Program-made: the position numbers and the translations under genes
Shown: positions 2,041 through 34,837 of the stretch, one piece after another
Layout of the letters: each line of letters opens with the position of its first letter
How positions within the stretch are numbered: the first letter of the stretch is position 1
The notes under the pieces: generated by a model
The model's database searches: none
What the model was told of the DNA's origin: nothing
The model's input: only the letters and a program-made list of their open reading frames with translations
Assembly: GCA_944321645.1 (NCBI GenBank)
Contig: CALUMB010000023.1
Coordinates: 1-36,158, forward strand
Reading direction: 5' to 3'
DNA: 36,158 nucleotides
Origin: an uncultured Prevotella sp.
GTDB lineage: Bacteria > Bacteroidota > Bacteroidia > Bacteroidales > Bacteroidaceae

Positions 2041-2259
2041 ACTTGCAAATATGTAACTAAAAAACGTTCCCCCGCGTCCGATTTTCTGTGTGCGCCATGT
2101 TTGTGCCACGAAACGGCCTGTTTCGGCCTGCGATATGGCCTGTTTCAGGAGCTAAAACGGCCTGTTTTGCAATCCAAAACGGCCTGTTCCGCAACACGTT
2201 GGAAGCCAAGCGTTTAGCCGAAATGCCGGTTGCCGTTGTTTTTAACGTAAAAATGTTAA
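2041..2259 (+). repeat. 220-bp dispersed intergenic element, copy 1
   Basis: Starts with the degenerate dyad ACTTGCAAATATGTAACT (2041-2058). Four contiguous 22-bp units occupy 2110-2131, 2132-2153, 2154-2175 and 2176-2197; each carries GGCCTGTT and three begin AAAACGGCC or GAAACGGCC. It ends AACGTAAAAATGTTAA (2244-2259). The TTTAACAC box is replaced here by TTTTCTGTG. It fills most of the gene-free stretch 1953-2323, between the start of the small lipoprotein gene and the stop of the secreted-protein gene. No ORF in it looks coding. Confidence 0.85.
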
Positions 2260-2323
2260 CGGCTGTTGGGCGTGGCGAATGGCGTTTGGGCAGGCTGTAG
2301 CTGTGTTCCTTGCGGCAAAAAGT

Positions 2324-2770
2324 TCACCGCCTCTTTTTAAATTCCAGCTTCTTGGGCAGCTTCTGCCATTTGCCCTTGTTCGGGACTTTCAGCGTGCTTC
2401 CGCCTTCTTGGGTCAGCACGAAGGTGCTGTCGTCAACCATTTTTAGCGTGGCCTTCAGGTCTTCGCTTCCATAGTCGTTGATAAGCTCCAGCTCGGCTTC
2501 GTCTTCCCCAACCACTTTTCCTGCAGTTACGAGCCAGAAGAAGCTGTTGCGCCTTTTGGCGAGATAGCCGGGCAGCTCGCCGAAAATCTCGTGGTTTGGC
2601 ACTATCATGCCGTTGCCTTCGATGTTGAGGTTCATGTAAACCTCGTATTCGTTGTTGTTGAAGTTGCCGGTGAAAGGCTTGTTTACGTCTTGCGCGGTTG
2701 CCTGCAAGGCTGCGAAAGCCATTGTGGCCGCGAGTAGCAGTCTTGCGAAGCCCGGTTTCTTGTTTTCCAT
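2324..2770 (-). CDS. Small secreted protein of unknown function
   Basis: I do not recognise this 148-residue protein. It has a standard signal peptide (MENKKPGFARLLLAATMAF then AALQATAQ), with likely cleavage near ATA-QD at about residue 27. The mature part of about 120 residues is predicted mostly beta (NNNEYEVYMNLNIEGNG, DDSTFVLTQEGGSTLKV) and ends in a very basic tail (KLPKKLEFKKRR). A start at 2794 (MDKKKRHIMENKK) is also possible; 2770 gives the more normal signal peptide. A TACCTTTG box on the minus strand at 2898-2891 would give a leader of about 110 nt. Repeat copy 1 begins 64 bp beyond its stop. A lipocalin-like or beta-sandwich periplasmic role is a guess only. Confidence 0.7.
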   Translation of the reverse strand: MENKKPGFARLLLAATMAFAALQATAQDVNKPFTGNFNNNEYEVYMNLNIEGNGMIVPNHEIFGELPGYLAKRRNSFFWLVTAGKVVGEDEAELELINDYGSEDLKATLKMVDDSTFVLTQEGGSTLKVPNKGKWQKLPKKLEFKKRR

Positions 2771-2890
2771 TATGTGTCGTTTTTTCTTGTCCATAATCCG
2801 TTTCTTGTTTGTGCGCCTGTCGCCTATGTGCGGCGGTTGGTAGGACAACCGTTGCCGTTTGGCGTTAAAAATGTTTGCGGAGCGATGCTG

Positions 2891-2898
2891 CAAAGGTA
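2891..2898 (-). promoter_or_regulatory. TAnnTTTG -7 box upstream of the secreted-protein gene
   Basis: On the minus strand TACCTTTG (2898 to 2891) matches the Bacteroidota -7 consensus. No clean TTTG is present at the right distance upstream, so only the -7 element is supported. It would leave a leader of about 110 nt. Confidence 0.45.
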
Positions 2899-2950
2899 GC
2901 GAAAGAAAATCATTAAAACGCACGTTTACAGAAGATTAAGCAGTTTTTTG

Positions 2951-2981
2951 TTTGAAAGTTCACATTTTTTTCGTATATTTG
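2951..2981 (+). promoter_or_regulatory. Bacteroidota-type promoter of the glycogen operon
   Basis: TTTG (2951-2954), 19 bp, then TATATTTG (2974-2981): a close match to the TTTG / TAnnTTTG consensus. Predicted transcription start is about 2987, leaving a leader of only about 8-14 nt before the ATGs at 2995 and 3001. Confidence 0.75.
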
Positions 2982-2994
2982 CGCCGCTAAAAAA

Positions 2995-4674
2995 ATGTAT
3001 ATGGGGAAATGTAAGTTCACCCCCGACTATGTTTTAGAGTCAAGTTGGGAAGTTTGCAATAAAGTTGGTGGCATTTACACGGTTTTGTCTTCGAGGGCAA
3101 AAACCTTGCAAAGCGCCATGCGTGACAAGATTATATTCATCGGGCCGGACTTCGGCGGCGATGTGCAGTCTGAATATTTCAGCGAAGATGCTTCGCTTTA
3201 TGCCGAATGGCAGGACGCTGCCGCCAAGGCCGGAATCAAGGCCAGGATAGGCAGGTGGAACGTGCCGGGCAACCCTGTGACCATTCTCGTGGACTTCAAG
3301 CCGTATTTTGAGGTTAAGAACCGGCTTTACGGGTGGCTTTGGGAGCATTACGGAGTTGACAGCCTCCATGCTTACGGCGACTACGACGAGGCTTCCATGT
3401 TCTCATACGCAGCCGCGCTTGTGGTTGAGAGCTTTTACAACGCCTGCGCCAAGCCGTCGGACAGGGTCGTCTACCACGGCAACGAGTGGATGACTGGGCT
3501 TGGACTGCTATACGTTAATAATAAGTTGCCGCAGGTAGGCACGCTGTTCACCACCCACGCAACGAGCATAGGCCGCAGCATCGCCGGAAACATGAAGCCG
3601 CTTTACGACTACCTGTTTGCCTACAATGGCGACCAGATGGCCGGGGAACTGAACATGCAGAGCAAGCATTCGATAGAAAAGCAGACGGCATGGCACGTGG
3701 ACTGCTTCACGACCGTGAGCGAGATAACCGCAAACGAGTGCAAGGAGCTGCTCGACCGCCCGGTTGACGTGGTGCTGCCCAACGGGTTCGACGACAGCTT
3801 CGTGCCAAGCGAGCCTTCGTTTGCCGAAAAGCGCAAGCTCGCCCGCAAGCGGCTGCTTGCAGTTGCAGGCGCGCTTATAGGCGAAAGCCTCGCTGACGAC
3901 ACACTGATAGTTTCTACCAGCGGCCGCTACGAGTTCCGCAACAAGGGCGTGGATGTCTACATCGAGGCCATGAACCGCTTGCTGCGCGACAAGGAACTTG
4001 GCCGGAAGGTGGTCGCTTTCATTGAAGTTCCCGGTTGGGTAGGGGAGCCGCGTAAGGACTTGCAAGACCGCCTGGCCTCCGGCGACAGCTACGACACGCC
4101 GCTAAGTGTGCCGCTGGTCACCCACTGGCTCCACGAAATGAGCCACGACCGCGTGCTCGATATGCTCAAGTACTTCGATATGCACAACAGGAAGGAAGAC
4201 AACGTGAAGGTGATATTCCTCCCGTGCTACCTCGACGGGCATGATGGCATCTTGAATATGCCGTACTACGACATTATATTGGGCAACGACCTCTGCATCT
4301 ATCCCTCCTATTACGAACCGTGGGGATACACTCCGCTTGAGGCCATCGCGTTCAAGGTGCCTTGCATCACGACAGACCTTTCAGGCTTCGGCCTGTGGGC
4401 CAACAGCCAGTTTGGCCGCTATGGCGAGCTTTCGGACGGCGTAAAGGTGATCCACCGCACCGACTACAACTATTCTGAAGTGGCGGACTGCATAAAGGAT
4501 GCCGTTGCGGAATATTCCAACTTCACCCCCGAACACATATCGGAAGCACGCGAAAACGCTTCCGCGCTATCAAAGAAGGCACTTTGGAGCGAGTTCATAA
4601 AATACTATTACGAGGCTTACGACATCGCATTGTCAAAGGCTGAAGCCCGTAAAACATCGTCGAGACAATCATAA
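2995..4674 (+). CDS. Glycogen synthase, GT3 (eukaryotic-like) family
   Basis: The protein (559 residues) transfers glucose from a nucleotide sugar, in GT3 enzymes UDP-glucose, to the non-reducing end of glycogen. The N-terminal [20 protein letters not shown] matches the eukaryotic glycogen synthase signature ([14 protein letters not shown]) and not the KTGGL motif of bacterial GT5 GlgA. The C-terminal half has [15 protein letters not shown] (from residue 436) followed by TTDLSGFG, again GT3-type, with Glu441 as the expected catalytic-site acid. It is much shorter than the roughly 700-residue animal enzymes and lacks their regulatory ends. Start: the promoter allows 2995 or 3001 ([10 protein letters not shown]); the latter fits homologues about equally well. 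It is 19 bp upstream of the phosphorylase gene and surely co-transcribed with it. Confidence 0.93.
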
Positions 4675-4693
4675 GTTTTTTACAGTCAGTTAT

Positions 4694-7267
4694 ATGAAGA
4701 TTAAAGCAGATTACGTAAACGTTCCACAGTGGACGGAATTGAACGTGAGGGCTGTGATGCCAGACCAGCTGAAATGCCTGGACGAGTTGGCCCACAACAT
4801 GTGGTGGTCTTGGAACTACGAAGCCCGCGATCTCTTCAGGGAACTTTCGCCCGAGCTTTACAGGAAAGTGAACCACAACCCTGTGCTCCTGCTTGAAAGG
4901 CTCAGCTATGAGCGCAAGGAGGAAATCCTGCAGGACGAAAACTTGATGAAGAAAATCAAGACAGTCTACACCCACTTCCGTGAATACATGGACGTGAAGC
5001 CCGACAGCACGAGGCCGTCTGTCGCATACTTCTCGATGGAATACGGACTCAACCAAGTCCTCAAGATATATTCTGGCGGTCTTGGAATGCTTGCAGGCGA
5101 CTACCTTAAGGAAGCTTCCGACAGCAACGTCGATATGTGCGCCGTCGGTTTCCTCTACCGCTATGGCTACTTCACCCAGTCGCTGAGCATGGACGGCCAG
5201 CAGATTGCGAAATACGAGGCACAAAACTTCAACCTGCTCCCCATTGAGCGCGAGCTTGATGCCGACGGAAACCCGCTGGTGGTCGAAGTTCCCTATCCCA
5301 ACTATTTCGTACACGCATACGTCTGGAGGGTAAACGTTGGCCGTATCAAGCTGTACCTCCTCGACACTGACAACGAAATGAACTCCGATTTCGACAAGCC
5401 CATAACCCACTCACTCTATGGCGGCGACTGGGAGAACCGCCTTAAGCAGGAAATACTCCTCGGCATGGGTGGCGTGCTGTTGCTTAAGAAGCTCGGAATC
5501 AAGAAAGACATATACCATTGCAACGAAGGCCACGCCGCATTGTGCAACCTCCAGCGTCTGTGCGACTACGTTGACAGCGGGTTGACATTCAACGAGGCGT
5601 TGGAACTTGTGCGCGCATCGTCGCTCTACACAGTCCACACGCCGGTGCCTGCCGGCCACGACTACTTCGACGAAGGTTTGTTTGGCAAGTACATGGGTGC
5701 TTATCCGGCAAAGCTTGGCATTTCGTGGGATGAGCTTATCGGCATGGGCCGCAACAATCCCGACGACCATTCGGAGAAATTCTGTATGTCGGTGTTCGCC
5801 TGCAACACCTGCCAGGAAGTCAATGGCGTGAGCAAGCTGCACGGATGGGTGAGCCAGAAGATGTTCTCAAGCATCTGGACCGGCTATTATCCCGAGGAAA
5901 ACCATGTGGGCTATGTGACGAACGGCGTCCACATGCCGACATGGGCCGCAACGGAATGGCGCAAGCTTTACGCCAAGTATTTCGACGATTCGTTCATGGG
6001 CGACCAGAGCAACCCGAAGATTTGGGAAGCAATATACAATGTGCCTGACGACGAGATATGGGATACGCGCATGGCATTGAAGAACAAGCTGGTAGACTAC
6101 ATCCGCATTCAGTTTAAGGAAAAGTGGCTGCGCAACCAGGGAGATCCCGCCCGCGTCGTGTCGTTGCTTGAGCGCATCAACCCCAACGCGCTCATGATAG
6201 GCTTCTGCCGCCGCTTCGCCACATACAAGCGCGCACACCTGCTTTTCACGGACATTGACCGTTTGGAGAAGATTGTAAACAATCCGAACTTCCCCGTGCA
6301 GTTCCTGTTTGCCGGAAAGGCACATCCTGCCGATGGCGCGGGCCAGGGGTTGATAAAGAAGGTTTACGAGATCAGCCAGCGCCCGGAGTTCCTCGGCAAG
6401 ATAATTTTCCTCGAAGACTACGACTACCAGCTTGCGCGCAGGCTCGTTTCCGGCGTGGACATTTGGATGAACACGCCGACCCGCCCGCTCGAGGCTTCTG
6501 GAACGTCAGGCGAGAAGGCCGAGATGAACGGCGTGGTGAACCTCTCCGTGCTCGACGGATGGTGGCTCGAGGGCTACCGCGAGGGCGCAGGCTGGGCCTT
6601 GACGGAGAAGCGCACCTACCAGAACCAGACTTACCAAGACCAACTCGATGCCGCTACTATCTACAGTATGCTTGAGCGCGAAATCATCCCGCTCTACTAT
6701 GCAAGAAACGAGAAGGGCTACAGCGAAGGCTGGGTGAAGGTAATAAAGAACTCAATCGCACAGATTGCCCCCCACTATACGATGAAACGCCAGCTCGACG
6801 ACTACTACCGCAAGTTCTACGAGAAGGAGGCTGCCCGCTTCAAGGTGCTTTCCGACAACGACAACCTCGTCGCAAAGGAAATTGCCCACTGGAAGGAGGC
6901 TGTCGCCGAGCGTTGGGATTCCATCTCGGTCGTTTCGTGTGAGTGGGACGTTTTGCCCTCCGGCATAGAGACGGGCAAGGAGTACACGCTGCGCTACGTT
7001 ATCAACGAGCAAGGGCTTGACGATGCCATCGGCCTGGAATTTGTATCGGTGAAGAGCGGCAGCGATGGCGACAACTGCATCTCGAGCATCTACCCGATGG
7101 AGGTTGTGGAGCACAATGGCAACAACTATACTTTCGAGGGAAAGATAGAAGCCGACAACGCCGGCTCGTTCAAGGGTGCTGTCAGGATGTATCCTAAGAA
7201 CTCCAAGTTGCCCCACAGGCAGGACTTCTGCTATGTGAAGTGGCTCACATTGCCAGAATATAAGTAA
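4694..7267 (+). CDS. glgP: Alpha-glucan (glycogen) phosphorylase, GT35
   Basis: This 857-residue enzyme releases glucose-1-phosphate from glycogen with a pyridoxal-phosphate cofactor. It belongs to the short bacterial type: the N-terminal region ([18 protein letters not shown], about residues 31-48) is the DUF3417-like cap seen in these proteins. The active-site lysine lies in [14 protein letters not shown], with Lys608 as the likely PLP-binding residue, followed by [12 protein letters not shown]. The last 100 residues or so form a beta-rich extension beyond the catalytic core. The gene follows glycogen synthase by 19 bp and ends 12 bp before a perfect terminator, so synthesis and breakdown are encoded in one two-gene operon. 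Control is therefore probably allosteric or post-translational rather than by differential transcription. Confidence 0.95.
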
Positions 7268-7279
7268 TACAACAAGGTT

Positions 7280-7318
7280 GCCCCCAACCAGCCGTCGGCT
7301 GGTTGGGGGCGTTTTTTT
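7280..7318 (+). terminator. Strong Rho-independent terminator of the glycogen operon
   Basis: A perfect 14-bp stem, GCCCCCAACCAGCC (7280-7293) with GGCTGGTTGGGGGC (7297-7310), a 3-nt loop, then G and seven T. Confidence 0.95.
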
Positions 7319-7390
7319 GTTGCCGCGCCTGCAAATCCGTGCTTTGCTGTGGCCAAGGTTGCCATGGCGGGTGGTTTTCCGCATTGCAAA

Positions 7391-7431
7391 AGCTAAAGGT
7401 GGCGAAGCGCACCGCTTCTCCACCTTTAGCT
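7391..7431 (-). terminator. Terminator of the RNase G gene
   Basis: A long inverted repeat, AGCTAAAGGTGG (7391-7402) with CCACCTTTAGCT (7420-7431), extended inward by GAAGCG/CGCTTC with one mismatch. On the minus strand the stem is followed by TTTTGC. It starts within the stop codon of the RNase G gene. Confidence 0.8.
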
Positions 7432-9005
7432 TATTTAGTCTCGATTTCTTCCTTCATGTCGATGAAGTTGCCTTTCTTGTCGTAGAATTCGTATTGCAGG
7501 AAGGCCAACTTTTGCGATGCCACAACGTTAAGCCCGAATCCATACTTTACCTGCCATTGCCGTTTCAACGAAAACAGGCCTTGGTTGATGTAGGCGGCTA
7601 CGTAAGGATGCACGTGCAAATTGAACTTCTTGACCCCTATTTTGTTGACCAGCCTGTCTATTTTGCTTTCAAGTTGGTCGGTAAACAAGATGCTCGACTT
7701 TATCTTTCCCCTGCCGAAACAAGTTGGGCAGGTCTCCTCGACGTTCACGTCCATGGCCGGGCGGACTCTCTGGCGGGTGATTTGCATGAGGCCGAATTTG
7801 CTTAGCGGCAGTATGTTGTGCCTTGCCCTGTCCTTCTGCATGTTCTTGCACATCCGCTCGTAGAGCATCTGCCGGTCCTCGGCCAGGTTCATGTCGATGA
7901 AGTCTATGACGATGATGCCGCCCATGTCGCGCAGCCTTAGCTGCCTTGCGATTTCGTCGGCCGCGCCCAAGTTCACCTCGAGGGCGTTGGCTTCCTGCCC
8001 GTTTTCGGCGCGTGTCCTGTTGCCGCTGTTCACGTCTACCACGTGTAGGGCTTCCGTGTGCTCTATTATCAGGTATGCTCCGCGCTTGTAGTTCACCGTC
8101 TTTCCAAAGGCCGACTTAATCTGTTTCGTGACGTTGAAGTTGTCGAAGATGGGCACTTGGCCTGTGTATCTCTTTACGATGTCGATTTGCTCCGGGGCAA
8201 TCAGGCTAAGGTATTCCCTTACTTGGGTAAAGACTTCCTCGTCGTTTACGTAAATGCCATCGTAGCTTGAGTTGAACAAGTCGCGCAGCAGGGCAACCAC
8301 CCTGCCTGTTTCCTCGTGTACGACTTGTGGCAACTTGGCGCTCTTCTGTGCCTTTGTAATCGCGTCGTCCCATTTCTTCAGCAGGGCTTTCATTTCTTTG
8401 TCAAGCTCTGCCACGCGCTTGCCTTCGGCAGAGGTGCGGACGATCACGCCGAAATTTTTTGGCTTTATGCTCTGTATGAGCTGTTTGAGCCTTGTTCTTT
8501 CCTCGCCTTTCTTGATTTTGGAAGAGACGGAAACCTTATCGTTGAACGGTATCAGTACCATGTATCGGCCGGCAAAGCTTAGCTCGCAGGTGAGCCTTGG
8601 CCCTTTTGTTGAAATTGGCTCTTTTACGATTTGGACCAATACCTCCTGCCCGACTTTCAGTGTGGTCTGCACGCTCCCGTCTTTTTTCAGGTCTGGGAGC
8701 CTTGAAGCCTTTGAGATTGGATAAAGTTTCTTTTTGTCGCTGAGTACTTGTTTAAGATATTTCTGGTAAGAGTCAAACTGCGAACCTAAGTCAAGATAAT
8801 GCAAAAAGGCATCCCGCTCGAACCCGACATCCACGAAACTGGCATTAAGTCCTGGCATGAGTTTCTTTACCTTTGCCAAATAGATGTTGCCGACAGAAAA
8901 AGACGCCGACCTCGTTTCGGTTTGGTATTCCACGAGGTTCTTGTCCTCGAGCAATGCAATCGAAATTTCTTTTGGCCGTACATCAATGATTACTTCGCTT
9001 GTCAT
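7431..9005 (-). CDS. rng: Ribonuclease G/E
   Basis: The 524-residue endoribonuclease has the catalytic-core layout of RNase E/G. An N-terminal S1-like region (SVGNIYLAKVKKLMPGLNAS then FVDVGFERDAFLH) carries an insertion at about 75-115. The RNase H-like/DNase I-like core holds the two metal-binding aspartates, Asp324 in HVVDVNSGNR and Asp368 in IIVIDFIDM, equivalent to D303 and D346 of E. coli RNase E. A Zn-link CPTC (Cys426, Cys429) mediates dimerisation. Length fits RNase G or the short RNase E without the degradosome scaffold. It cuts single-stranded AU-rich RNA in rRNA maturation and mRNA decay. The gene lies 267 bp downstream of the mS38-like peptide gene, and a stable hairpin in that gap (9045-9066) could be a leader element. 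Confidence 0.95.
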   Translation of the reverse strand: MTSEVIIDVRPKEISIALLEDKNLVEYQTETRSASFSVGNIYLAKVKKLMPGLNASFVDVGFERDAFLHYLDLGSQFDSYQKYLKQVLSDKKKLYPISKASRLPDLKKDGSVQTTLKVGQEVLVQIVKEPISTKGPRLTCELSFAGRYMVLIPFNDKVSVSSKIKKGEERTRLKQLIQSIKPKNFGVIVRTSAEGKRVAELDKEMKALLKKWDDAITKAQKSAKLPQVVHEETGRVVALLRDLFNSSYDGIYVNDEEVFTQVREYLSLIAPEQIDIVKRYTGQVPIFDNFNVTKQIKSAFGKTVNYKRGAYLIIEHTEALHVVDVNSGNRTRAENGQEANALEVNLGAADEIARQLRLRDMGGIIVIDFIDMNLAEDRQMLYERMCKNMQKDRARHNILPLSKFGLMQITRQRVRPAMDVNVEETCPTCFGRGKIKSSILFTDQLESKIDRLVNKIGVKKFNLHVHPYVAAYINQGLFSLKRQWQVKYGFGLNVVASQKLAFLQYEFYDKKGNFIDMKEEIETK

Positions 9006-9044
9006 TCCTTAAACGGTTTTGTTCTTTCGTTCGTTGTTTGTCAT

Positions 9045-9066
9045 GCGCGGCAAGGCATTGCCGCGC
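9045..9066. other. Stable hairpin in the RNase G leader region
   Basis: GCGCGGCAA (9045-9053), a 4-nt loop, TTGCCGCGC (9058-9066): a perfect 9-bp stem. A T-rich tract (CTTTCCTTTTT) follows on the plus strand, but no plus-strand gene precedes it. On the minus strand it would lie 40 nt upstream of the RNase G start. It may be a cleavage or autoregulation site, or an orphan terminator. The rest of 9006-9272 shows nothing I can name. Confidence 0.5.
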
Positions 9067-9272
9067 CTTTCCTTTTTGGTGGAGCCATGCTGCTGCAGTG
9101 GTGAATCCGCTGCGCCTTGCCTGTGCCGCCATGCTGGCGTGGCCTGGCAAGCTTGTGCCGTGAAGGCTCCTGCATACATAAACAGAAAGGGTGTGCCACC
9201 ATCCCCACGGACATTTTGACACACTCCTTCCATAAGATTATCCGAATAGACCCTTGAGAGGTCTGCAAAGGC

Positions 9273-9362
9273 TTACTTGCTCTTGTGCCTATTCTTTCTT
9301 AATCTTTTCTTACGCTTGTGAGTTGCCATCTTGTGGCCTTTCTTCTTTTTTCCGCTTGGCAT
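9273..9362 (-). CDS. 29-residue mS38/AURKAIP1-COX24-like basic protein
   Basis: The minus strand at 9362-9273 encodes a 29-residue peptide of MPSGKKKKGHKMATHKRK type, followed by KRLRKNRHKSK and a TAA stop. More than half of the residues are Lys, Arg or His. This matches a family of tiny Bacteroidota proteins carrying the AURKAIP1/COX24 C-terminal motif, related to the mitochondrial small-subunit ribosomal protein mS38. Its likely place is on the ribosome, wrapped in rRNA. It lies 24 nt after the HU gene in the same direction and upstream of RNase G, a context of nucleic-acid binding and RNA processing. It is easily missed because of its length; identity rests on my recall of the family and on the strong compositional match. 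Confidence 0.8.
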   Translation of the reverse strand: MPSGKKKKGHKMATHKRKKRLRKNRHKSK

Positions 9363-9386
9363 AGCTTATAATTTTAAATGTTACAG

Positions 9387-9674
9387 TTAATTTGCTTTAT
9401 TCTTCATCATTGCGATGAAACTCTTGGCCGGCTTGAATGCCGGATAGTCGTGCGCTTCTATTGTGATTGTGATGTTCTTTGAAATGTTGCGGGCCGTCTT
9501 TGGCGCCCTCTTCTTGACGATGAAGCTCCCAAAGCCTCGCAGGAACACGTCTTCCTTGCGCTTAGTGAGGCTTTCCCTCACCTCTTCCATGAAGGCCTCG
9601 ATTGTAGTGGCCACGTCTTTCCGCGACAGTCCCGTGTCCTTTACAATGTTATTAATTATTTCAGCTTTTGTCAT
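9387..9674 (-). CDS. HU/IHF-family DNA-binding protein
   Basis: The 95-residue product is a histone-like HU protein: a helical dimerisation half (TKAEIINNIVKDTGLSRKDV then TTIEAFMEEVRESL), the FLRGFGSF turn (residues 45-51), and the DNA-gripping beta-arm (about 60-77) ending YPAFKPAKSF. The arm lacks the RNPxTGE proline motif of proteobacterial HU and instead has ARNISKNITI, the form usual in Bacteroidota. As a dimer it bends and compacts DNA. The start at 9674 is chosen because MTKAEII is the conserved N-terminus; the extension upstream to 9731 runs through the promoter. It is the first gene of an HU, mS38-like, possibly RNase G transcription unit. Confidence 0.93.
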   Translation of the reverse strand: MTKAEIINNIVKDTGLSRKDVATTIEAFMEEVRESLTKRKEDVFLRGFGSFIVKKRAPKTARNISKNITITIEAHDYPAFKPAKSFIAMMKNKAN

Positions 9675-9728
9675 CTCAGCTTGTAATGTTTGAAGTTGTG
9701 ATTTTAAACCGATTCTGATTTCGGACTG

Positions 9729-9736
9729 CAAATATA
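9729..9736 (-). promoter_or_regulatory. TAnnTTTG -7 box of the HU gene
   Basis: TATATTTG on the minus strand (9736 to 9729), about 55 bp upstream of the HU start; the -33 element is weak (TTTCC). Confidence 0.55.
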
Positions 9737-9909
9737 GCTATTTTTGGCCGTTCGTGGAAATTTATCATGCTTTTTTTGATAAAAATGGGGCGATTTGGTC
9801 TTGTTGAGCCATAAAATGCACACATATAGCGGGTTACGCCGTCTCCTTTGTCGGTGTGTGGCGGCCTCTCGTCCTTTCGTGCCGGGCGTTGTCGCGCACC
9901 GGGTGCGTT

Positions 9910-10129
9910 AGTTGCATATATGCAAGCAAAAGTCGCCTCGCGCCCCTTCTGCTTTAACACAGGCCGCAGACGCCTTGCAAAACATGCCGTATTGGCTTCC
10001 GTTTCGTGCCGTTTTGCACGCTGAAAGGGCCTGTTTCGGAAGGCAAAATGGCACGTTTCGCAAGACGTTGGCAGCCAGTGCGTTGCGCGAGGAGGGTGGC
10101 CTTGCGGCCTGTTAAGTTAAAAATGTTAA
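9910..10129 (+). repeat. 220-bp dispersed intergenic element, copy 2
   Basis: Dyad AGTTGCATATATGCAAGC at 9910-9927; CTTTAACACAG box at 9952-9962; four contiguous 22-bp units at 9979-10000, 10001-10022, 10023-10044 and 10045-10066; terminal GTTAAGTTAAAAATGTTAA at 10111-10129. Unit phase relative to the dyad is identical to copy 1. It lies between the divergent HU gene and the AraC-type gene. Confidence 0.9.
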
Positions 10130-10307
10130 TCCGGCTGCCGCGCTGCCTGTGCTCGAAGTTCTGCCCTTGGGCGCAGCTGTGCTTCGGCCCTTTGTGGCGT
10201 TGGCCGGGCTTGTGCCGGTCAGGGCGCTTGGCTTGCTTTCCGGCTTCCTTTTTTGCCGGACTTGGAAAATTGTGCCCCCGAAACCTCGCAATGTCAAGAA
10301 TAATTTG
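10130..10307. other. Gene-free stretch between repeat copy 2 and the AraC-type promoter
   Basis: GC-rich sequence with no open frame of coding character, no strong hairpin and no recognisable RNA. Together with the HU promoter and repeat copy 2 it makes up the 727-bp intergenic region 9675-10401. Confidence 0.5.
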
Positions 10308-10315
10308 TAAATTTG
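10308..10315 (+). promoter_or_regulatory. TAnnTTTG -7 box of the AraC-type gene
   Basis: TAAATTTG at 10308-10315, with no clear -33 partner. It predicts a leader of about 80 nt before the ATG at 10402. Confidence 0.5.
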
Positions 10316-10401
10316 CGTCAAAGATTGGAAGGGCTGACGGAAATTAAAGCGGTGTACTTTGTTTCGACGCGGCAGGAACATCTAAAAAATTAATCAAAAT
10401 C

Positions 10402-10833: not shown

Positions 10834-10903
10834 CGGCATGGCGGGCGTTCCATTTGGGCCAGCCCGTTAGCCGTGCAAAATGTCCGGCCATTCGTGGCCT
10901 GCT

Positions 10904-10933
10904 GGCAGCCGCACATTGCTGCCGCTATTTTTT
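10904..10933 (+). terminator. Terminator after the AraC-type gene
   Basis: GGCAGC (10904-10909) with GCTGCC (10918-10923), 8-nt loop, then GCTA and six T. Confidence 0.7.
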
Positions 10934-10959
10934 GTTTTAGAACTGTTTTATAAAGAATT

Positions 10960-12903: not shown

Positions 12904-12946
12904 CGGCATCTTCTAACAAACCAATAACCAATTGTATTTCAGTAAG

Positions 12947-13570: not shown

Positions 13571-13589
13571 TTTCCGTAAATTTTGAGCC

Positions 13590-19582: not shown

Positions 19583-19612
19583 TCGCGTTTTCTGGAGGCG
19601 GGCTTTCTGGTT

Positions 19613-19831
19613 AGTTGAATATATGCAACTAAAAACGGCTGTTGCCCCGTCGCTTTTTAACACGGCCCAAATCGCCGTGCAAAATGGCTCGTTTCGCACG
19701 GCGAAATGGCACGAATCAGACGCTAAAACGGTGCGTTTGGGAGACCAAAGTGCACCGTGTTCGCAACCGGTTGAACCTCAATCGGTTAGGCGGATGCCGC
19801 CGCTCGCTCCTTGTTAAGTTAAAAATGTTAA
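19613..19831 (+). repeat. 220-bp dispersed intergenic element, copy 3 (219 bp)
   Basis: Dyad AGTTGAATATATGCAACT at 19613-19630; TTTTTAACACGG box at 19654-19665; four contiguous 22-bp units at 19681-19702, 19703-19724, 19725-19746 and 19747-19768; terminal GTTAAGTTAAAAATGTTAA at 19813-19831, identical to copies 2 and 4. One base is missing in the part before the units. It lies 30 bp downstream of the phytase-like gene, in the same orientation. Confidence 0.9.
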
Positions 19832-20056: not shown

Positions 20057-20058
20057 CG

Positions 20059-22137: not shown

Positions 22138-22162
22138 GCTGCCTCGTTTTGTGTACTATGAT

Positions 22163-22323: not shown

Positions 22324-22330
22324 ATTTCTT

Positions 22331-23017: not shown

Positions 23018-23029
23018 ACTTAAGGTTTT

Positions 23030-23108
23030 GAGTGTGGAACCAAGGGCGGTGGGGAATTGGCCATAGACGGAACATGGCCAATTCCCCACCGCCCTTGGTT
23101 CTCCACTC
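23030..23108. terminator. Very long bidirectional hairpin between convergent genes
   Basis: Arms of 35 bp (23030-23064 and 23074-23108) match at 33 positions, with a 9-nt loop. It fills the gap between the J-domain gene (plus) and the fbp gene (minus). Its position suggests a bidirectional terminator, although no long T run is present on either side. Confidence 0.75.
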
Positions 23109-23120
23109 TTGAATTTTGCG

Positions 23121-27343: not shown

Positions 27344-27358
27344 TGCGAAAACGTTCCT

Positions 27359-28519: not shown

Positions 28520-28573
28520 ATATTCTCGTGTTTTGTCAATTTGTCCCGCTCCGGCTTTTATGTCCACGCGCCT

Positions 28574-29899
28574 TCAGTCTTTGCCGTTGAATAACGTGTC
28601 GCTGAGGCTTTGCAGCGCCCTTTTCTTGTCGCTCTCCTTAATGAGGAATGAGATATTGTAGTTTGAGCCGCCGTATGAAATCATTCTCACGGGGATGTCC
28701 TTCATCGCGTCCATCGTGAGAGTCTCGAAACCGACGTTGCTCCAGTCGAGGTCGCCAACGACACAGACGATGCACATATTGCTGTCCACGGTCACGGTGC
28801 CGTACTTTTTAAGCTCGTCTACTATTTCGTCTAAGTGCGACACATTGTCGATGCTCATCGAAACGCCTACTTCCGACGTGCAAACCATGTCGATTGGAGT
28901 CTGGTAGCTCTCGAATATCTCAAACACCTTTCTAAGGAAGCCAGTTGCCAGCAGCATTCGGCTACTCTTAATCTTGATTGCCGTGATGTTGTCTTTGGCG
29001 GCCACGGCCTTAATCCTTCCCCGCTCTGTGGCGTTGCTTATAAGCGTACCTTCGGCTTCCGGGGCCATCGTGTTCAGCAGCCTTACAGGTATTCCGGCAA
29101 ATTTTGCCGGCTGTACGCAGGTGGGATGCAGGATTTTTGCTCCGAAATAGGCAAGTTCGGCAGCCTCCTCGAAGTGGAGGTGGTGTACGGGCGATGTCTT
29201 GTCCACCACGCGCGGGTCGTTGTTGTGCATCCCGTCTATGTCGGTCCAGATTTGTATTTCCTCCGCGCCAATGGCTGCTCCGATGAGCGATGCCGTATAG
29301 TCGCTGCCCCCGCGTTGCAGGTTGTCTATCTCGCCGTAGGCATTCCTGCAGATGAAGCCCTGCGTGATGTAGACCATCGCGCCTTTGCGTGCGTCGAGTA
29401 TGGCGTTCAGCTTCTCCTTGATGTATGCGGGATCCGGCTCGGAGTTCTTGTCCGTCCTCATAAAGTCGAGCGCGGAGAGCAGCTCTACGTTTATGCCGCA
29501 CTCTTGCATATAGTTGGCCATCATGTTCGTGCTGATCACCTCTCCCTGTGCCACGATGCACTTTTCCTCGAAGCTCGTGAACAGTTCTTTGGTGAAAGAG
29601 CGCAGGTACTTGAACTCTTCCAAGAGGAACTGGCGCGTCTTCTCCTTCCACTCTGCCGTAGAGTACAACTCCTCCACGTGCCTGAAGTATTTCTCCTCCA
29701 GCTTGTTTATTATCTCGTTGGCTCCCTCGGGGTTCTTCTTGAAGAGGTAGTTGGATATTTCCACGAGTGAGTTTGTCGTGCCGGACATGGCCGACAGTAC
29801 CACGAACACAGGCTCGTCGCGCCTTGTTATCAGGCGTGCCACTTCTTTTATGCGTTCAGGCGACCCTACGGAGGTGCCGCCAAATTTCATTACTTTCAT
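28574..29899 (-). CDS. lysC: Aspartate kinase
   Basis: This 441-residue enzyme phosphorylates aspartate, the committed step to lysine, threonine, methionine and diaminopimelate. The N-terminal amino-acid-kinase domain starts MKVMKFGGTSVGS (Lys5 in KFGGTS) and contains RGGSDYTASLIGAA and WTDIDGMHNNDPRVV, which bind ATP and aspartate. Two C-terminal ACT domains follow (about 300-441; ITAIKIKSSRMLLATGFLRK and MCIVCVVGDLDWSN), the site of feedback control. It is monofunctional: no homoserine dehydrogenase domain is fused. The gene lies between ftsE (61 bp) and lysA (54 bp) on one strand and no promoter box is visible before it, so read-through from upstream is likely. Confidence 0.95.
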   Translation of the reverse strand: MKVMKFGGTSVGSPERIKEVARLITRRDEPVFVVLSAMSGTTNSLVEISNYLFKKNPEGANEIINKLEEKYFRHVEELYSTAEWKEKTRQFLLEEFKYLRSFTKELFTSFEEKCIVAQGEVISTNMMANYMQECGINVELLSALDFMRTDKNSEPDPAYIKEKLNAILDARKGAMVYITQGFICRNAYGEIDNLQRGGSDYTASLIGAAIGAEEIQIWTDIDGMHNNDPRVVDKTSPVHHLHFEEAAELAYFGAKILHPTCVQPAKFAGIPVRLLNTMAPEAEGTLISNATERGRIKAVAAKDNITAIKIKSSRMLLATGFLRKVFEIFESYQTPIDMVCTSEVGVSMSIDNVSHLDEIVDELKKYGTVTVDSNMCIVCVVGDLDWSNVGFETLTMDAMKDIPVRMISYGGSNYNISFLIKESDKKRALQSLSDTLFNGKD

Positions 29900-29960
29900 G
29901 CTTGGTATGTTTTGTTTGTTTTTTGTTTTGCCTTGTCTCTTGCTATCGTTCCTGCGCGGT

Positions 29961-30710
29961 TCATGCCATGGACGTTGGCTGCTGGGTGTCGGCGGGTGCC
30001 TCGTCAGCGTCGTCGGCGCACTCCATCCGGTTGAAGTCGTTGGTCACTTCCCTTAGGCTTCCGTTCTCGCAGCGGTAGACTATTCCCGGATATTTGTCGA
30101 GCAATGGCATGTTGTGCGTGCTCATTATCACCGATGTTCCCGTCTGCGAGATGTGGCGGAGCAGCCTGATGATGTTTTCGGCAGTCTCGGGGTCGAGGTT
30201 GCCCGTCGGCTCGTCGGCCACAATCAGCTTCGGCTTGTTGAGTATGGCCCGCGCAATGGCTATGCGCTGCTGTTCGCCGCCAGACAGCTCGTGCGGCATT
30301 TTGTCGGCCTTGTCTTCCAGGCCCACGTCGCTCAGCACTTCCTTAATCCTTTCGTCAATCTGTTTCTTGCCTTTCCAGCCAGTCGCGCGTAGCACGAACC
30401 GCAAGTTCTTGTACACCGTGCGGTCGCTCAGCAGCTGGAAGTCTTGGAATATCACGCCCATCTGCCGGCGCAGTGCCGGCACGTGTTTGCGCTTCAGTGT
30501 GCGCAGGTCTTGTTCCATCACCGTTGCCTTTTCGGCCTCTTCTATGTCGAGTTCAAAGTAGACTGTCTTAAGCAGCGAGCTTTTGCCGGACCCTACGCGC
30601 CCTATCAGGTAGATGAACTCCCCCTCGTCCACATGGAAGTCCACGCCAGACAGCACTGGCTTGCCTTCTTGGTGGTATATGTTGACCTTCTGGTAATCTA
30701 CTAACATCAC
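29961..30710 (-). CDS. ftsE: Cell-division ATP-binding protein FtsE
   Basis: A 249-residue ABC ATPase of the FtsE type. Walker A is GRVGSGKS (37-44), the Q-loop lies in [10 protein letters not shown] (85-94), the signature is LSGGEQQR (142-149) and Walker B LIVADEP (162-168), with the H-loop in [13 protein letters not shown]. The Walker A variant with R-V in place of P-S occurs in Bacteroidota FtsE. FtsE with FtsX activates peptidoglycan hydrolases at the septum. FtsX is not next to it. A C-terminal acidic tail ([20 protein letters not shown]) exceeds the usual length of about 220. It sits between hisIE (75 bp) and lysC (61 bp), a placement unrelated in function. ATGs at 30710 and 30707 are both possible. 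Confidence 0.88.
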
Positions 30711-30785
30711 AGTTTTTGTTAATCCGTTTGCAATGGTTTCTTGCCGCAGTCGCCGCCGGTTGTGCTTGGCCTGCGGCCTGGCCCC

Positions 30786-31400
30786 TTAGTGCTTGTGCCA
30801 CGACGGCGAGTGGCGCACCTGTAGTTCGCGCACGAGGTCTTCAATGCGAAGCCCCTTGGCCGTGAGCAACACTATCAGGTGGTAGAGCAGGTCGGAGCCT
30901 TCGTACACCAGCCTTTCGTCAGTGCCGTTCACGGCTTCTATCACGGCTTCAAGCGCCTCTTCGCCAACCTTTTGCGCCATTCTGTTAATCCCGTCCTTGA
31001 ACAGCGACGTGGTGTAACTCCCTTCCGGCATTTCTTCGTGGCGTTTCTCAATGAAGTCTTGCAGCGTCGAGAGGAAAGCCACCGGGTTTGGCTCGTTTTT
31101 CTCGCCCCAGCAAGTGTCTGTACCTTTGTGGCACACGGGGCCTTCCGGCGAAACTTTCACGAGCAGTGCGTCGTTGTCGCAGTCTGCGTCGATGCTCACG
31201 AGGTTCAGGAAGTTGCCCGACGTTTCGCCCTTTGTCCAAAGGCACTGGCGGCTGCGGCTGAAGAAGGTCACCCGCTTTGTCTCCACGGTCTTTTCGTATG
31301 CTTCGCGGTTCATGTAGCCGAGCATCAACACTTTTGCCGTGGCTGAATCTTGTATGATGGCAGGCACGAGGCCGTTGCTTTTGTCGAAGTCTATTGTCAT
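30786..31400 (-). CDS. hisIE: Bifunctional phosphoribosyl-AMP cyclohydrolase / phosphoribosyl-ATP pyrophosphohydrolase
   Basis: This 204-residue fusion carries out steps 2 and 3 of histidine synthesis. The HisI half (about 1-105) has the metal-binding DADCD (71-75) and zinc cysteines Cys90 and Cys97 (PVCHKGTDTCWGE). The HisE half (about 108-204) has KVGEEALEAVIEA (144-156) and EGSDLLYHLIVLL (167-179), with the acidic residues that bind Mg. The fused form is normal in Bacteroidota and enterics. It begins 7 bp after the hisF stop and is the end of the his cluster; hisG, hisD, hisC and hisB are not in this window. Confidence 0.96.
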   Translation of the reverse strand: MTIDFDKSNGLVPAIIQDSATAKVLMLGYMNREAYEKTVETKRVTFFSRSRQCLWTKGETSGNFLNLVSIDADCDNDALLVKVSPEGPVCHKGTDTCWGEKNEPNPVAFLSTLQDFIEKRHEEMPEGSYTTSLFKDGINRMAQKVGEEALEAVIEAVNGTDERLVYEGSDLLYHLIVLLTAKGLRIEDLVRELQVRHSPSWHKH

Positions 31401-31407
31401 AACTGTC

Positions 31408-32166
31408 TTACATTCTTATGTTTATGTTTTGCTCCCTAAGGTAAGCCTTGAGTTCTGGTATCTTTATCTCGCCGAAGTGGAAAACGCTTGCCGCCAAGGC
31501 CGCGTCGGCGCGTCCTTTGGTGAATGCGTCGCGGAAATGCTCCTTCCTGCCTGCGCCGCCACTGGCTATGATCGGTATGGAGAGAAGGCCTGCGAGTTCC
31601 GCCAGTATGTCGTTGGCGTAGCCGTTTTTCACGCCGTCGTGATCCATGCTGGTGAACAATATCTCACCCGCGCCGCGCCCTTCAGCCTCCCTGGCCCATT
31701 CCTTCAGCTTGAGTTCGGTGCGCACGCGGCCTCCGTTCACGTAGCAGAACCACTCGCCACCCTCTTGCTTGGCGTCGATGGCGCACACGCATACCTGCCG
31801 CCCGAACCGCGCGGCTATCTCGTCTATCAGCTGCGGGTGCCTTATTGCTGCGCTGTTCACGCTCACCTTGTCGGCCCCGGCGTACAGCAGGCGTTCCACG
31901 TCGCCTATCTCGTTGATGCCGCCGCCCACGGTGAACGGTATGTTGATTTCGCCGGCTATGCGCGTGACTATTTCCGTGAACGTCTTCCTTCCCTCGCTGC
32001 TGGCCGTTATGTCGAGGTAGACCAGCTCGTCGGCCCCGGCCTGGCTGTATGCCTTGCCAAGCTCCACGGGGTCGCCGGCCTTGCGCAGGTTTACGAAGTT
32101 TGTGCCTTTTACTGTCTCGCCGTCCTTCACGTCGAGGCACGGTATTATGCGTTTTGCCAGTGCCAT
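31408..32166 (-). CDS. hisF: Imidazole glycerol phosphate synthase subunit HisF
   Basis: The 252-residue (beta/alpha)8 barrel is the cyclase subunit that joins ammonia from HisH to PRFAR, giving imidazole glycerol phosphate and AICAR. The start [16 protein letters not shown] is standard, with catalytic Asp12, and Asp131 in [12 protein letters not shown] is the second one. Phosphate-binding loops [10 protein letters not shown] and [10 protein letters not shown] are intact. Its start overlaps the end of hisA by 22 bp, longer than the other junctions in the cluster but needed to include the conserved N-terminus. The AICAR it releases is recycled into purine synthesis. Confidence 0.96.
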
Positions 32167-32870
32167 AGGCCCTCCATGTCTATCTTGCCCTCGTATATTG
32201 CTTTGCCGAAAACCACGGCGGGTATGCCGTTGCGGGCCAGCTCGTGTATGTCTTCCTCGCCTGCGACCCCACCGCTCGCTATCAGGTGCAGGGTGGGGTG
32301 GGCTTCCATTATGCCTTTGTAGAGTTCCGTGGCCGGGCCGGCGAGCATCCCGTCTTTGGAAATGTCGGTACACAGCACGTTCCTCGCGCCGTGGCCTACA
32401 TAGAAGTCGAGGAAGTCGCTAAGGCCGATGGCCGACTCTTCTGTCCAGCCGTGTATGGCAATCTTGCCGTTGCTCACGTCGGCTCCGAGTATTATCCTGT
32501 CTCCGCCGTATTTCCCAATCCACTCTATGCACTTTGCCCTGTCCGTCACCGACACCGACCCTATCGTGGCCATGGCCGCGCCGTTGTCAAACACTTGCTC
32601 GATGTCGGCGTCTGTCTTTATCCCCCCGCCGAAGTCTATCGCCAGGCTTGTGCTCCCGGCAATGGCCTTTAGGGTGGCAATGTTTACGATGTGGCCGGCC
32701 CTTGCCCCGTCTAAGTCTACGAGGTGCAGCCTCTTGTAGCCAATCTCCTCGAAGCGCCTTGCCATCGAGGCGGGGTCGTCGCCGTAGACGGTCTTCTGCG
32801 CGAAGTCGCCTTTGGTCAGCCTCACGCACTTGCCGTCCATTATGTCTATTGCTGGTATCAGCTCTATCAT
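32145..32870 (-). CDS. hisA: ProFAR isomerase HisA
   Basis: The 241-residue (beta/alpha)8 barrel isomerises ProFAR to PRFAR (Amadori rearrangement). It starts [18 protein letters not shown], with Asp9 as the first catalytic residue; other expected residues are Asp131 in ILGADVSNG and Asp169 in [10 protein letters not shown]. Phosphate loops are [11 protein letters not shown] (80-90) and [11 protein letters not shown]. The gene overlaps hisH upstream by ATGA (32867-32870) and hisF downstream by 22 bp, so the three subunits are made in a coupled fashion. Sequence similarity with HisF reflects the known common ancestry of the two barrels. Confidence 0.96.
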
Positions 32871-33460
32871 AGGCTAAGGAAGTTTTTCAGTATTCTTTCG
32901 CCCACGCTCCCGCTTTTTTCCGGGTGGAACTGCGTCGCGTAGAAGTTGTCTTTGCCTAAGGCCGCGCTGTAAGGCAGTATGTGTTCCGACGTGGCGATGG
33001 TCTCTGCGCACACCGGCACGTAATAGCTGTGTACGAAATACACGTAGTCGCCCTCGGCCACGCCGTCGAAGAGCCTCGACTTCAGGCCCGTCAGGGCGTT
33101 CCAGCCCATGGCCGGCACTTTGTCTTCGTGGCGCGCGGGCCTGAACAGCCTCACGTCGGCGTCGAACACGCCGAGGCACTCCGTCCCGCCGCCCTCTTCC
33201 GAGCTCTTGCAGAGCAGCTGCTGGCCTATGCAGATGCCGAGCACGGGCTGCCGCAGGCTTTTTATCACACGGTCAAGCCCGTGCTCCCTAAGGTAGGCCA
33301 TGGTGCTGCTCGCCTCGCCCTGGCCGGGGAATATCACCTTGTCGGCGCTTGCCAGCTCTTTGGCGGAGTCGGTAATCTGCGGCTCGATGCCGAGCCTACG
33401 CAGCGCGTTCACCACCGAGAGCACGTTGCCAGCGTTGTATTTTACTATCGCAACTCTCAT
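32867..33460 (-). CDS. hisH: Imidazole glycerol phosphate synthase subunit HisH
   Basis: The 197-residue class I glutamine amidotransferase supplies ammonia to HisF. The catalytic triad is complete: Cys77 in LGICIGQQLL, and His179 and Glu181 in QFHPEKSG. The oxyanion-strand region PGQGEA (45-50) is also standard. The start at 33460 is chosen because it shares its A with the purU stop (TGATG), giving coupled translation, and because MRVAIVKYNAGN is the family start. It is the first his gene of the block. Confidence 0.96.
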   Translation of the reverse strand: MRVAIVKYNAGNVLSVVNALRRLGIEPQITDSAKELASADKVIFPGQGEASSTMAYLREHGLDRVIKSLRQPVLGICIGQQLLCKSSEEGGGTECLGVFDADVRLFRPARHEDKVPAMGWNALTGLKSRLFDGVAEGDYVYFVHSYYVPVCAETIATSEHILPYSAALGKDNFYATQFHPEKSGSVGERILKNFLSL

Positions 33461-34323
33461 CAGCTGAATATGATGGTCTTGTTCTTATACGTCAGCACCT
33501 TGCGCTCTATGTGCTTAGTCACGGCGCGCGAAAGCACTATCTTCTCCAGGTCGCGCCCTTTCAGCACGAGGCTCTCTGGTGTGTCTTTGTGCGTTATGCG
33601 CACCACGTCCTGCTCGATTATCGGGCCTGCGTCTAGTTCGGTGGTCACATAGTGGCTCGTCGCGCCTATTATCTTCACGCCGCGCTCCCACGCCTGGTGG
33701 TAGGGCTTGGCCCCAACGAACGCCGGCAGGAACGAGTGGTGTATATTAATAATGTGGTTGGGGTATTCGTCTATCAGCCTTTCGCTGATAATCTGCATAT
33801 ACCGGGCGAGCACGATGAACGACACCTTCTCTTTCCGCAGCAGCTCTATCTCCGCCTCTTCCACCTCGGCCTTGTTGGAGTGGTCCTTGTTTATCTTCCA
33901 TACGTAGAAAGGTATGTCGAACTGGTCGGCCACGTAGCGCAGGTTTTCGTGGTTGCTCACAATGCAGGGTATGTCCACGCACCACTCGCCGGCGTTGTAG
34001 CGTGCCAGCAGGTCGTAGAGGCAGTGGCTCATCTTGCTCACGAATATGGCCATCCGCGGCCTCACCTCGTTGAAGTAGAGGTCGAAGTTCAGCTGGTAGC
34101 GGCGCGAGTATAGCGTGTCGATATATTCCTTAATCTTCTCGCGCGGTATCAGGAAGGAGTCAAGCTCCCATTCTATCCGCATGAAGAACACCCCGTCCAG
34201 CCTGTCCACGTACTGGTCGAGGTACACAATGTTGCCTTGGTTGTCGGTTATGAACTTTGTCAGTTCGGTTATGATGCCCGGCTGGTCGGGGCAGTGCAGC
34301 AGCAAAATCGCAGTTGGCTTCAT
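33460..34323 (-). CDS. purU: Formyltetrahydrofolate deformylase
   Basis: The 287-residue enzyme hydrolyses 10-formyl-THF to THF and formate. An N-terminal ACT domain (about 1-85; AILLLHCPDQPGIITELTKF) is followed by a formyl-transferase domain with the catalytic Asn193 and His195 in NIHHSFLPAF and Asp231 in TELDAGPIIEQD. The combination ACT plus these residues distinguishes it from PurN. It is the promoter-proximal gene of the his block, with a TAACTTTG box 40 bp upstream, and its stop overlaps the hisH start. The link may be metabolic: HisF produces AICAR, which needs formyl-THF to re-enter purine synthesis, so tuning the formyl-THF pool beside his genes makes sense. This last point is inference. 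Confidence 0.94.
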   Translation of the reverse strand: MKPTAILLLHCPDQPGIITELTKFITDNQGNIVYLDQYVDRLDGVFFMRIEWELDSFLIPREKIKEYIDTLYSRRYQLNFDLYFNEVRPRMAIFVSKMSHCLYDLLARYNAGEWCVDIPCIVSNHENLRYVADQFDIPFYVWKINKDHSNKAEVEEAEIELLRKEKVSFIVLARYMQIISERLIDEYPNHIINIHHSFLPAFVGAKPYHQAWERGVKIIGATSHYVTTELDAGPIIEQDVVRITHKDTPESLVLKGRDLEKIVLSRAVTKHIERKVLTYKNKTIIFS

Positions 34324-34363
34324 CGTTCTCTCCGGTTGTTTTATCCATTGTCCAATCGTTTGG

Positions 34364-34371
34364 CAAAGTTA
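34364..34371 (-). promoter_or_regulatory. TAnnTTTG -7 box of the purU-his directon
   Basis: TAACTTTG on the minus strand (34371 to 34364), about 40 bp before the purU start. The -33 element is weak. This is the only convincing promoter box seen for the 11-gene directon. Confidence 0.6.
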
Positions 34372-34439
34372 CAAAAAATATGTCACAATCGCTTTCCATT
34401 AGCAAAAATATTGCATTTCAAACACCCATAAACATCAAA

Positions 34440-34617
34440 ATGTAATGAAACGCGAACGATTGGGAGCCATTTTATAACTGCATCGGCCTCAAATCGGGCG
34501 ATTGCTCCGGCCAAGGAGTGGCAGCCGCCGGGCGCGAGGCATCGTAACGCGCGGGCTGTGCAGGCTGGATTTGTGTGGAAGGGCCATCCATGCTGCCTTG
34601 GCTTGTCTGCTCGCGCG
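34440..34617. other. Gene-free stretch between the purU promoter and repeat copy 4
   Basis: No coding frame or RNA was recognised in this GC-rich sequence. With the promoter and repeat copy 4 it makes up the 592-bp region 34324-34915. Confidence 0.5.
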
Positions 34618-34837
34618 TTAACATTTTTAACTTAACGCTCCGCCATGCCGCGCCTCTTTGCTAACAGCCTGTAATACAACGCTTTGCTAAACGTGCCGTT
34701 TTGGCCTGCGAAATGGGCCGTTTTGGCTTGCGATTCGTGCCGTTTTGCGGCTTGAAACGGGCCGTTTCGCAATGTGGTTCCGCCCTGTGTTAAAATCGTG
34801 CGGCGCATGGCGGGCTTTTAGTTGCACTATTGCAACT
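34618..34837 (-). repeat. 220-bp dispersed intergenic element, copy 4 (inverted)
   Basis: Read on the minus strand: dyad AGTTGCAATAGTGCAACT (34837-34820); GATTTTAACACAG box; four contiguous 22-bp units at 34768-34747, 34746-34725, 34724-34703 and 34702-34681; terminal GTTAAGTTAAAAATGTTAA (34636-34618). It has the same phase as copies 1 and 2, and like copy 3 follows a gene (here the LRR gene) in the same orientation. Confidence 0.9.

Follow-up and report, generated by a model that had tools for sequence, protein, structure and literature searches.

A family of mirror-symmetric intergenic elements in Prevotella, with near-even spacing in three genomes

Results

The DNA analyzed here (the window: the whole 36,158-nucleotide stretch of contig CALUMB010000023.1, assembly GCA_944321645.1) comes from an uncultured Prevotella whose 2.70-Mb genome, 89.6% complete, is called the source genome below. 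Between its genes lie four copies of an element of about 220 bp, one of them inverted (Table 1), belonging to a numerous family in which a symmetric geometry is kept while the sequence diverges and whose members are nearly evenly spaced in three genomes. An initial annotation, made from the letters of the window, had assigned the four copies a common plan of an 18-bp dyad, a TTTAACAC box, four 22-bp units, and a terminal string, and all four were found where it had placed them, both by letters and by profile. Two details required correction: the terminal string GTTAAGTTAAAAATGTTAA is exact in copies 2 to 4, but copy 1 has TTTAACGTAAAAATGTTAA instead, and the four units are present in every copy, but the fourth unit of copy 3 holds one extra base.

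The tail pattern GTTAANNNAAAAATGTTAA matched the source genome 19 times, against 0 matches for a reversed-pattern control, so the family is not a product of chance. Eighteen of these matches belong to full elements read in the direction of the match, each with a left dyad about 200 bp upstream; the remaining one (L011) falls on the tail dyad of an element on the minus strand (contig C24, 24952–25162). A sequence-only profile built from 19 copies of the source genome (R1) gave 152 matches across the 2.70 Mb, many of them the two strands of one element, because the units are palindromes. When 150 of the 152 were merged, 132 distinct loci remained, of which 90 are full or nearly so; with 150 of 964 candidates scored, the 132 are a lower bound. 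Exhaustive scanning of contigs C1 to C4 and the window (404.6 kb) found 31 loci at 40 bits or more, which extrapolates to about 200 copies per genome; by that extrapolation the earlier estimate of hundreds holds. The profile scan that the initial annotation had proposed returned many further copies, and fixed lengths recur in three other genomes (G082, G017, and G108). Copy 4 and one element from genome G010 were compared with plasmid records, and neither gave a match.

Architecture and Classes of the Elements

We read 89 of the 90 top-scoring loci of the source genome (C82 was left out); these define class 1. Their fitted length is 222–225 positions in 86 of 89, a value that extrapolates ends that did not align, and the aligned part alone measures 219–223 bases in 81 copies and 189–217 in the other 8. 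This near-constant length accompanies considerable divergence: pairwise identity averages 60.5% and reaches at most 81.5%, and a pair of copies differs on average by 86.0 substitutions but only 1.15 internal gap events, or 75 substitutions per gap event, which bears out the earlier claim of constant spacing despite diverged sequence. In the consensus of the 89 copies, the distances between successive dyad centers, from the left dyad through the four units to the tail dyad, are 67.5, 22, 22, 22, and 67.5 bp. The element is thus mirror-symmetric about its middle, a feature absent from the initial annotation. An asymmetric motif, GCAAnnCnnTGnnnnnCAnnnnnTT, stands after unit 4.

The ends of the element vary more than its center. 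In 20 of the 42 partial loci, which were read individually, the units and the 3′ motif are common and the class-1 ends are mostly absent; a pattern search located a left motif of type GTGTTAAGGCTTCTTAA in 6 of these 20, with the matching right motif in 2 of the 6, and two further loci (L159 and L174) look alike in a third way by eye. Motif searches of the scanned contigs gave the same division. Among copies outside class 1, the class-1 tail dyad is missing from 10/10 in the source genome, 47/47 in G082, and 6/6 in G113, and the class-1 left dyad from 9/10, 45/47, and 6/6; the tail dyad is present in 19/21, 12/15, and 2/2 class-1 copies, respectively. The end motifs thus differ while the units and 3′ motif persist: one core is set between different ends. 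Other species have tandem 22-bp palindromes of their own sequence. The number of units appears not to be four in every species, since by eye one locus in G006 (L056) apparently has six and one in G027 (L069) has five. On two contigs of G017 (C91 and C92; L218–L237), many copies remain similar to one another beyond one or both ends of the 215-bp element, which may point to a larger composite repeat.

Spacing and Placement

Spacing along the chromosome is near-even in three genomes. In the exhaustively scanned part of the source genome, the coefficient of variation (CV) of 26 spacings is 0.49, compared with 0.89–0.91 under null models that place loci uniformly, within gaps, or within gaps of the same type (0/2000 for each), and one spacing is 3.5 kb. 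Among contigs of 30 kb or more, 30 carry loci from the profile search; these 80 loci yield 50 spacings with a CV of 0.47 versus 0.87 (0/5000), and none are closer than 6.4 kb, a set from which the shorter contigs, with one closer pair (C67, 4291 and 7252), are excluded. G082 has 62 loci in 394.6 kb at a mean distance of 6.1 kb, with a CV of 0.40 over 60 spacings versus 0.88–0.96 (0/3000); all 16 spacings on its contig C22 fall between 4.6 and 8.6 kb. In G113, eight loci in 90 kb (one at 40.5 bits) give seven spacings with a CV of 0.25 versus 0.84 (p 0.0006). In G108, where spacing was taken from the best 150 copies listed, contig C1 has a CV of 0.69 versus 0.95 once voids over 40 kb are cut (p 0.0003), none of its listed copies are closer than 3.2 kb, and 0 of 84 spacings are below 2 kb against 12.7% expected; on contig C2, such short spacings among the listed copies are likewise rarer than expected (5.7% vs. 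19.3%).

The two kinds of copy share one spacing rule. Shifting class-1 copies against the others raised the CV in the source genome (p 0.0013), G082 (0/4000), and G113 (p 0.0003), in a test whose shifted positions may land in genes. Copies with and without class-1 ends therefore avoid each other, and the spacing rule attaches to the common core.

Genes were called with a simple codon-usage script, for which starts and small genes are approximate. As the initial annotation had it for the four window copies, the elements are intergenic: none of the 89 overlaps a called gene, and element midpoints fall inside a called gene in 0/31, 0/60, 0/45, and 0/62 cases in four scanned sets. Eighty elements have two neighbors, in gaps that are convergent (29), tandem (33), or divergent (18), and nine more lie at contig edges. 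No replication-strand polarity was seen in G108, where by eye the strands are mixed along both contigs.

Copy 2 stands upstream of an RNase E/G gene, at a distance of about 0.9–1.1 kb (window 7431–10129). The nearest RNase G is 92% identical, and by its named relatives the window belongs to uncultured Prevotella sensu lato. In one relative (L239) the corresponding stretch between genes, near the RNase G gene, holds an element of another type and orientation, and in another (L238) there was no synteny near that gene. Five of 80 RNase G loci (80 kept of 486) matched the four profiles, one of them (L280) at only 18–20 bits; such few matches say little because unit sequence is species-specific.

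Table 1. Element copies, their parts, and a neighboring gene in the window
Feature	Position	Strand	Remarks
Copy 1, full	2040–2260	+	profile E 7.6e-44, letters checked; box unrecognizable
Copy 1, left dyad	2041–2058
Copy 1, units	2111–2123, 2133–2145, 2155–2167, 2177–2189
Copy 1, tail dyad	2241–2260
Copy 2, full	9908–10129	+	profile E 5.0e-41, letters checked
Copy 2, left dyad	9910–9927
Copy 2, box	9953–9960
Copy 2, units	9980–9992, 10002–10014, 10024–10036, 10046–10058
Copy 2, tail	10111–10129
Copy 3, full	19611–19831	+	profile E 4.4e-38, letters checked
Copy 3, left dyad	19613–19630
Copy 3, box	19656–19663
Copy 3, units	19682–19694, 19704–19716, 19726–19738, ~19747–19761		last unit +1 base
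Copy 3, tail	19813–19831
Copy 4, full, inverted	34617–34838	-	profile E 5.9e-44, letters checked
Copy 4, left dyad	34837–34820
Copy 4, box	34794–34787
Copy 4, units	34767–34755, 34745–34733, 34723–34711, 34701–34689
Copy 4, tail dyad	34636–34617
BspA-type leucine-rich-repeat protein with DUF6383 domain	34916–36157	-	adjoins copy 4

Distribution and Related Repeats

In a first sample searched at E ≤ 0.001, matches came from 17 of 35 additional genomes in the genus, compared with 0 of 24 genomes from other families of the order. With R1 at E ≤ 1e-12, 21 of 398 genomes of the genus match, the source genome included, and the best matches in G082, G113, G352, G309, and G126 include full-length elements of 220–222 bp. 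A second model, built on a 188-bp form of the element (R2, E ≤ 1e-8), matched 9 of 399 genomes of the family (source genome included), all from this genus, one of 30 genera. In these sequence searches, matches were confined to this genus; the lack of a match elsewhere is weak evidence, since units differ in sequence from species to species and the wide searches use stricter filters.

The 188-bp form is typified by genome G108, where R1 at E ≤ 0.001 gives at least 150 matches, antisense doubles included (best 1.2e-13). Of 30 elements read there (one a duplicate), 25 were measurable, and 24 of these extend from TTTGTAAA to TTTACA with a length of 188 bp; an alignment of 23 of them has 188 columns and no gaps. 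Like class 1 of the source genome, this family has four 22-bp units with the same unit ladder and 3′ motif, but its length is not that of class 1, with its 222–225 positions. The duplicate pair, L333 and L334 (C2:31231 and C2:701091), has identical element and flanks about 670 kb apart, probably a redundant overlap of a circular contig, so the G108 counts include at least one duplicate. Between copies of this family (L329–L358), units 2 and 3 swap places (CCTACGC/CAGCCGC), as if units recombine.

The 188-bp length recalls PINSR, a repeat described by Naito et al. (PMC4755523) as intergenic, 188 bp long, without coding capacity or terminal repeats, present in 177 and 184 copies per genome, and confined to the Prevotella intermedia group. 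We take G108 to be P. intermedia or closely related to it. Its listed copies split 95:55 over two contigs (top 150), close to the 120:57 and 122:62 published for PINSR (PMC4755523). One published PINSR copy lies downstream of tnaA (PMC4755523), and in G108 a copy stands just beyond the best tnaA candidate, a weak point because four of five PF01212 loci examined hold an element. These loci, of the beta-eliminating-lyase domain family (L388–L392, 3.3–4.1 kb), carry the 188-bp element above its average density.

As described, PINSR resembles the elements of the source genome in being intergenic, numerous, noncoding, and fixed in length, and differs in its 188 bp (vs. about 220), its unit sequence, and its ends. 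Given the core shared with the 188-bp family of G108, PINSR very probably belongs to the same superfamily, a judgment made on features other than the letters of the published consensus. The initial annotation had recognized no described family, which no longer stands: the family is lineage-wide and, with PINSR very probably a member, not wholly new. What is new here is the symmetric architecture, the common core with different ends, and the near-even spacing. The portions consulted of the PINSR report mention no unit array, symmetry, or spacing, and the words evenly, interval, and spacing are absent from its main text (PMC4755523). No title on Prevotella stood among the matches listed for literature on evenly spaced intergenic repeats, and the portions consulted of four further articles (PMC5771137, PMC3733652, PMC12306157, and PMC2267715) contain nothing on this family.

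Two other known repeats were considered and rejected as parent families. BrickBuilt of Porphyromonas gingivalis, a miniature inverted-repeat transposable element (MITE), has a 23-nt unit in 1 to 22.8 copies, spans 84–991 bp, occurs as 19 elements per genome, and carries IS5-type inverted ends (PMC4596501). Compared by description rather than by sequence homology, it too is an intergenic repeat in which short tandem units are flanked by a leader and a tail, but the elements studied here have 22-bp units, four of them in the class-1 consensus at near-constant length rather than in variable number, and many more copies; their class-1 ends are self-dyads of other sequence. The repetitive extragenic palindromes (REPs) of Escherichia coli and their bacterial interspersed mosaic elements (BIMEs) likewise place several palindromic units in each intergenic element at high copy number. 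They are, however, mosaics of 20–40 bp REP units linked to Y1 transposases (REP-associated tyrosine transposases, RAYTs; PMC6379681), in contrast to the fixed-length elements of four phased units studied here, and a Y1 transposase was found in one of the five genomes searched.

Discussion

We put at about an even chance the reading that these elements are chromosome-organizing nucleoprotein sites. Rather than a gene, each copy would be an assembly site on the DNA for a symmetric multiprotein complex. The four dyad-symmetric 22-bp units would be bound by a dimeric protein and, lying about two helical turns apart, would present it on one face of the DNA; the two end dyads, 67.5 bp from the nearest unit, would be occupied by that protein or by another one. 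The outcome would be a mirror-symmetric, probably bent or wrapped complex of about 220 bp. Selection would keep such sites in place between genes, about one per 6–13 kb, where they may act as regularly spaced landmarks that anchor topological domains or allow gyrase or a nucleoid protein to load, as proposed for BIMEs, of which some BIME-2 elements are reported to bind gyrase (PMC6379681). More tentatively, they may form a genome-wide ruler: hundreds of symmetric six-dyad sites for protein binding, placed by selection with nearly regular intervals (about 6 kb in one species, 12–13 kb in two), each nucleating a complex that delimits a topological domain, with unit sequence drifting along with the binding protein and geometry kept.

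The initial annotation had offered a structured RNA or a nucleoprotein site, and the pattern of change within units favors the latter. In class-1 units, double changes at opposite positions number 6 against 19.0 expected (0/2000 shuffles as low), two of the six being Watson–Crick, and units with both arms altered number 33 against 47.0. G082 units have 0 double changes versus 2.8 expected (p 0.046), and in G017 both arms are altered in 3 units versus 15.2, with 1 double change versus 1.3. No excess of compensatory changes appears in the units of class 1, G082, G017, or the mixed-class set of the source genome; arm changes that are not compensatory are more readily explained by half-sites that a protein dimer contacts independently than by hairpins. 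That the element is a structured noncoding RNA or RNA-processing element is accordingly very improbable, notwithstanding the palindromic units, a weak covariation of the tail dyad with its flanks, and three pairs with two-sided change in an RNAalifold consensus of 19 copies, the total of which is only -2.54 kcal/mol. The elements also face either way with respect to genes, Rfam yields no match in the window at the gathering threshold, and none of the 89 copies contains a TTTG/TAnnTTTG promoter pair on either strand, on which ground the idea of a promoter was rejected as well.

The main rival to a nucleoprotein site is a slow mobile element: a nonautonomous, MITE-like element (as BrickBuilt) mobilized by a transposase in trans, with rigid length imposed by the transposase and evenness arising from target immunity or the purging of close pairs. 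We regard this as rather unlikely. High copy number, intergenic location, different ends around one core, the closer likeness of the G108 copies, and the turnover of positions between species all speak for it. So does a similarity by eye between the ends of the 188-bp copies, left TGTAAAGATAATT and right, reversed, TGTAAATATTTTT, a partial match that contrasts with the statement of no terminal repeats by Naito et al. (PMC4755523); the ends of class 1 are instead two different self-dyads. Mobility is harder to reconcile with the absence of target-site duplications above shuffled pairs (89 copies of the source genome and 25 of G108), of near-identical pairs among the 89 copies, and of more than a few indels between diverged copies. 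A PF01797 Y1 transposase is encoded once in G004 and was absent from the source genome (89.6% complete), G017, G082 (80% complete), and G108, in a search of this family and not of other transposase families. End-specific immunity would not produce the mutual avoidance of copies with and without class-1 ends, and about three-quarters of PINSR regions are common to two strains, with most strain-specific conjugative regions free of PINSR (PMC4755523).

It is improbable that the elements instead mark transcription boundaries, as bidirectional terminators or insulators at operon ends that are even only because transcription units are. Convergent gaps are over-represented in the exhaustive set of the source genome (34 convergent gaps hold 13 elements, 207 tandem gaps 14, and 31 divergent gaps 3) and in G017 (18 in 36 convergent gaps), and the median distance to neighboring genes is about 160 bp. 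G004, however, favors divergent gaps (21 elements in 30), and G082 shows no preference between the two types, with 16 elements in 38 convergent gaps and 18 in 39 divergent ones. Terminator-like matches are weak in copies 1 and 3 and absent in copy 2, in a 20-kb scan that left copy 4 outside, and a null model that keeps the gap-type preference still yields a CV of 0.88–0.89.

Several observations weigh against chromosome-organizing sites. The preferred gap type varies by species, convergent in the source genome and divergent in G004. Evenness is weak in G004 (CV 0.76 vs. 0.91–0.96, p 0.016–0.061) and absent in G017 (CV 1.03); in G108 the listed copies have uncut CVs of 1.06 on C1 and 1.93 on C2, and C2 remains uneven after cutting (0.99 vs. 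0.97); in G113 the test for spacings under 3 kb is not significant by itself. Half-site depletion is clear in class 1 alone: units with both arms altered are not significantly rarer in G082 (5 vs. 6.9), the mixed-class set shows neither fewer double changes (7 vs. 8.7, not significant, 3/7 Watson–Crick) nor fewer such units (17 vs. 17.7), and, as copies share ancestry, shuffle values are a guide and not strict probabilities. The covariation of the tail dyad with its flanks (first position 43 vs. 32.5 of 82, p 0.004) could reflect a hairpin or the relatedness of copies. Copies also spread. Mean column identity is 89% among 23 chosen G108 copies, against 72% for 19 of the source genome, and full copies in G017, with some flank counted in, average 69% identity and reach 89%. 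Of 22 gene pairs conserved with G082, too few for a proper comparison of orthologous positions, an element lies in both genomes at 1, in G082 alone at 2, and in neither at 19. The alikeness of G108 copies and the turnover of positions indicate that spreading occurs; selection on geometry and spacing would come into play later.

Bacteroidota are a dominant phylum of the gut, and to our knowledge the organization of their chromosomes is poorly understood. If the elements are nucleoprotein sites of the kind outlined here, a repeat class of fixed geometry and even spacing would provide a visible landmark for topological domains in these bacteria, and the sequence of the element could serve as bait for finding the protein that binds it. 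Our results also suggest a genus-wide family to which PINSR, described as specific to one group, belongs.

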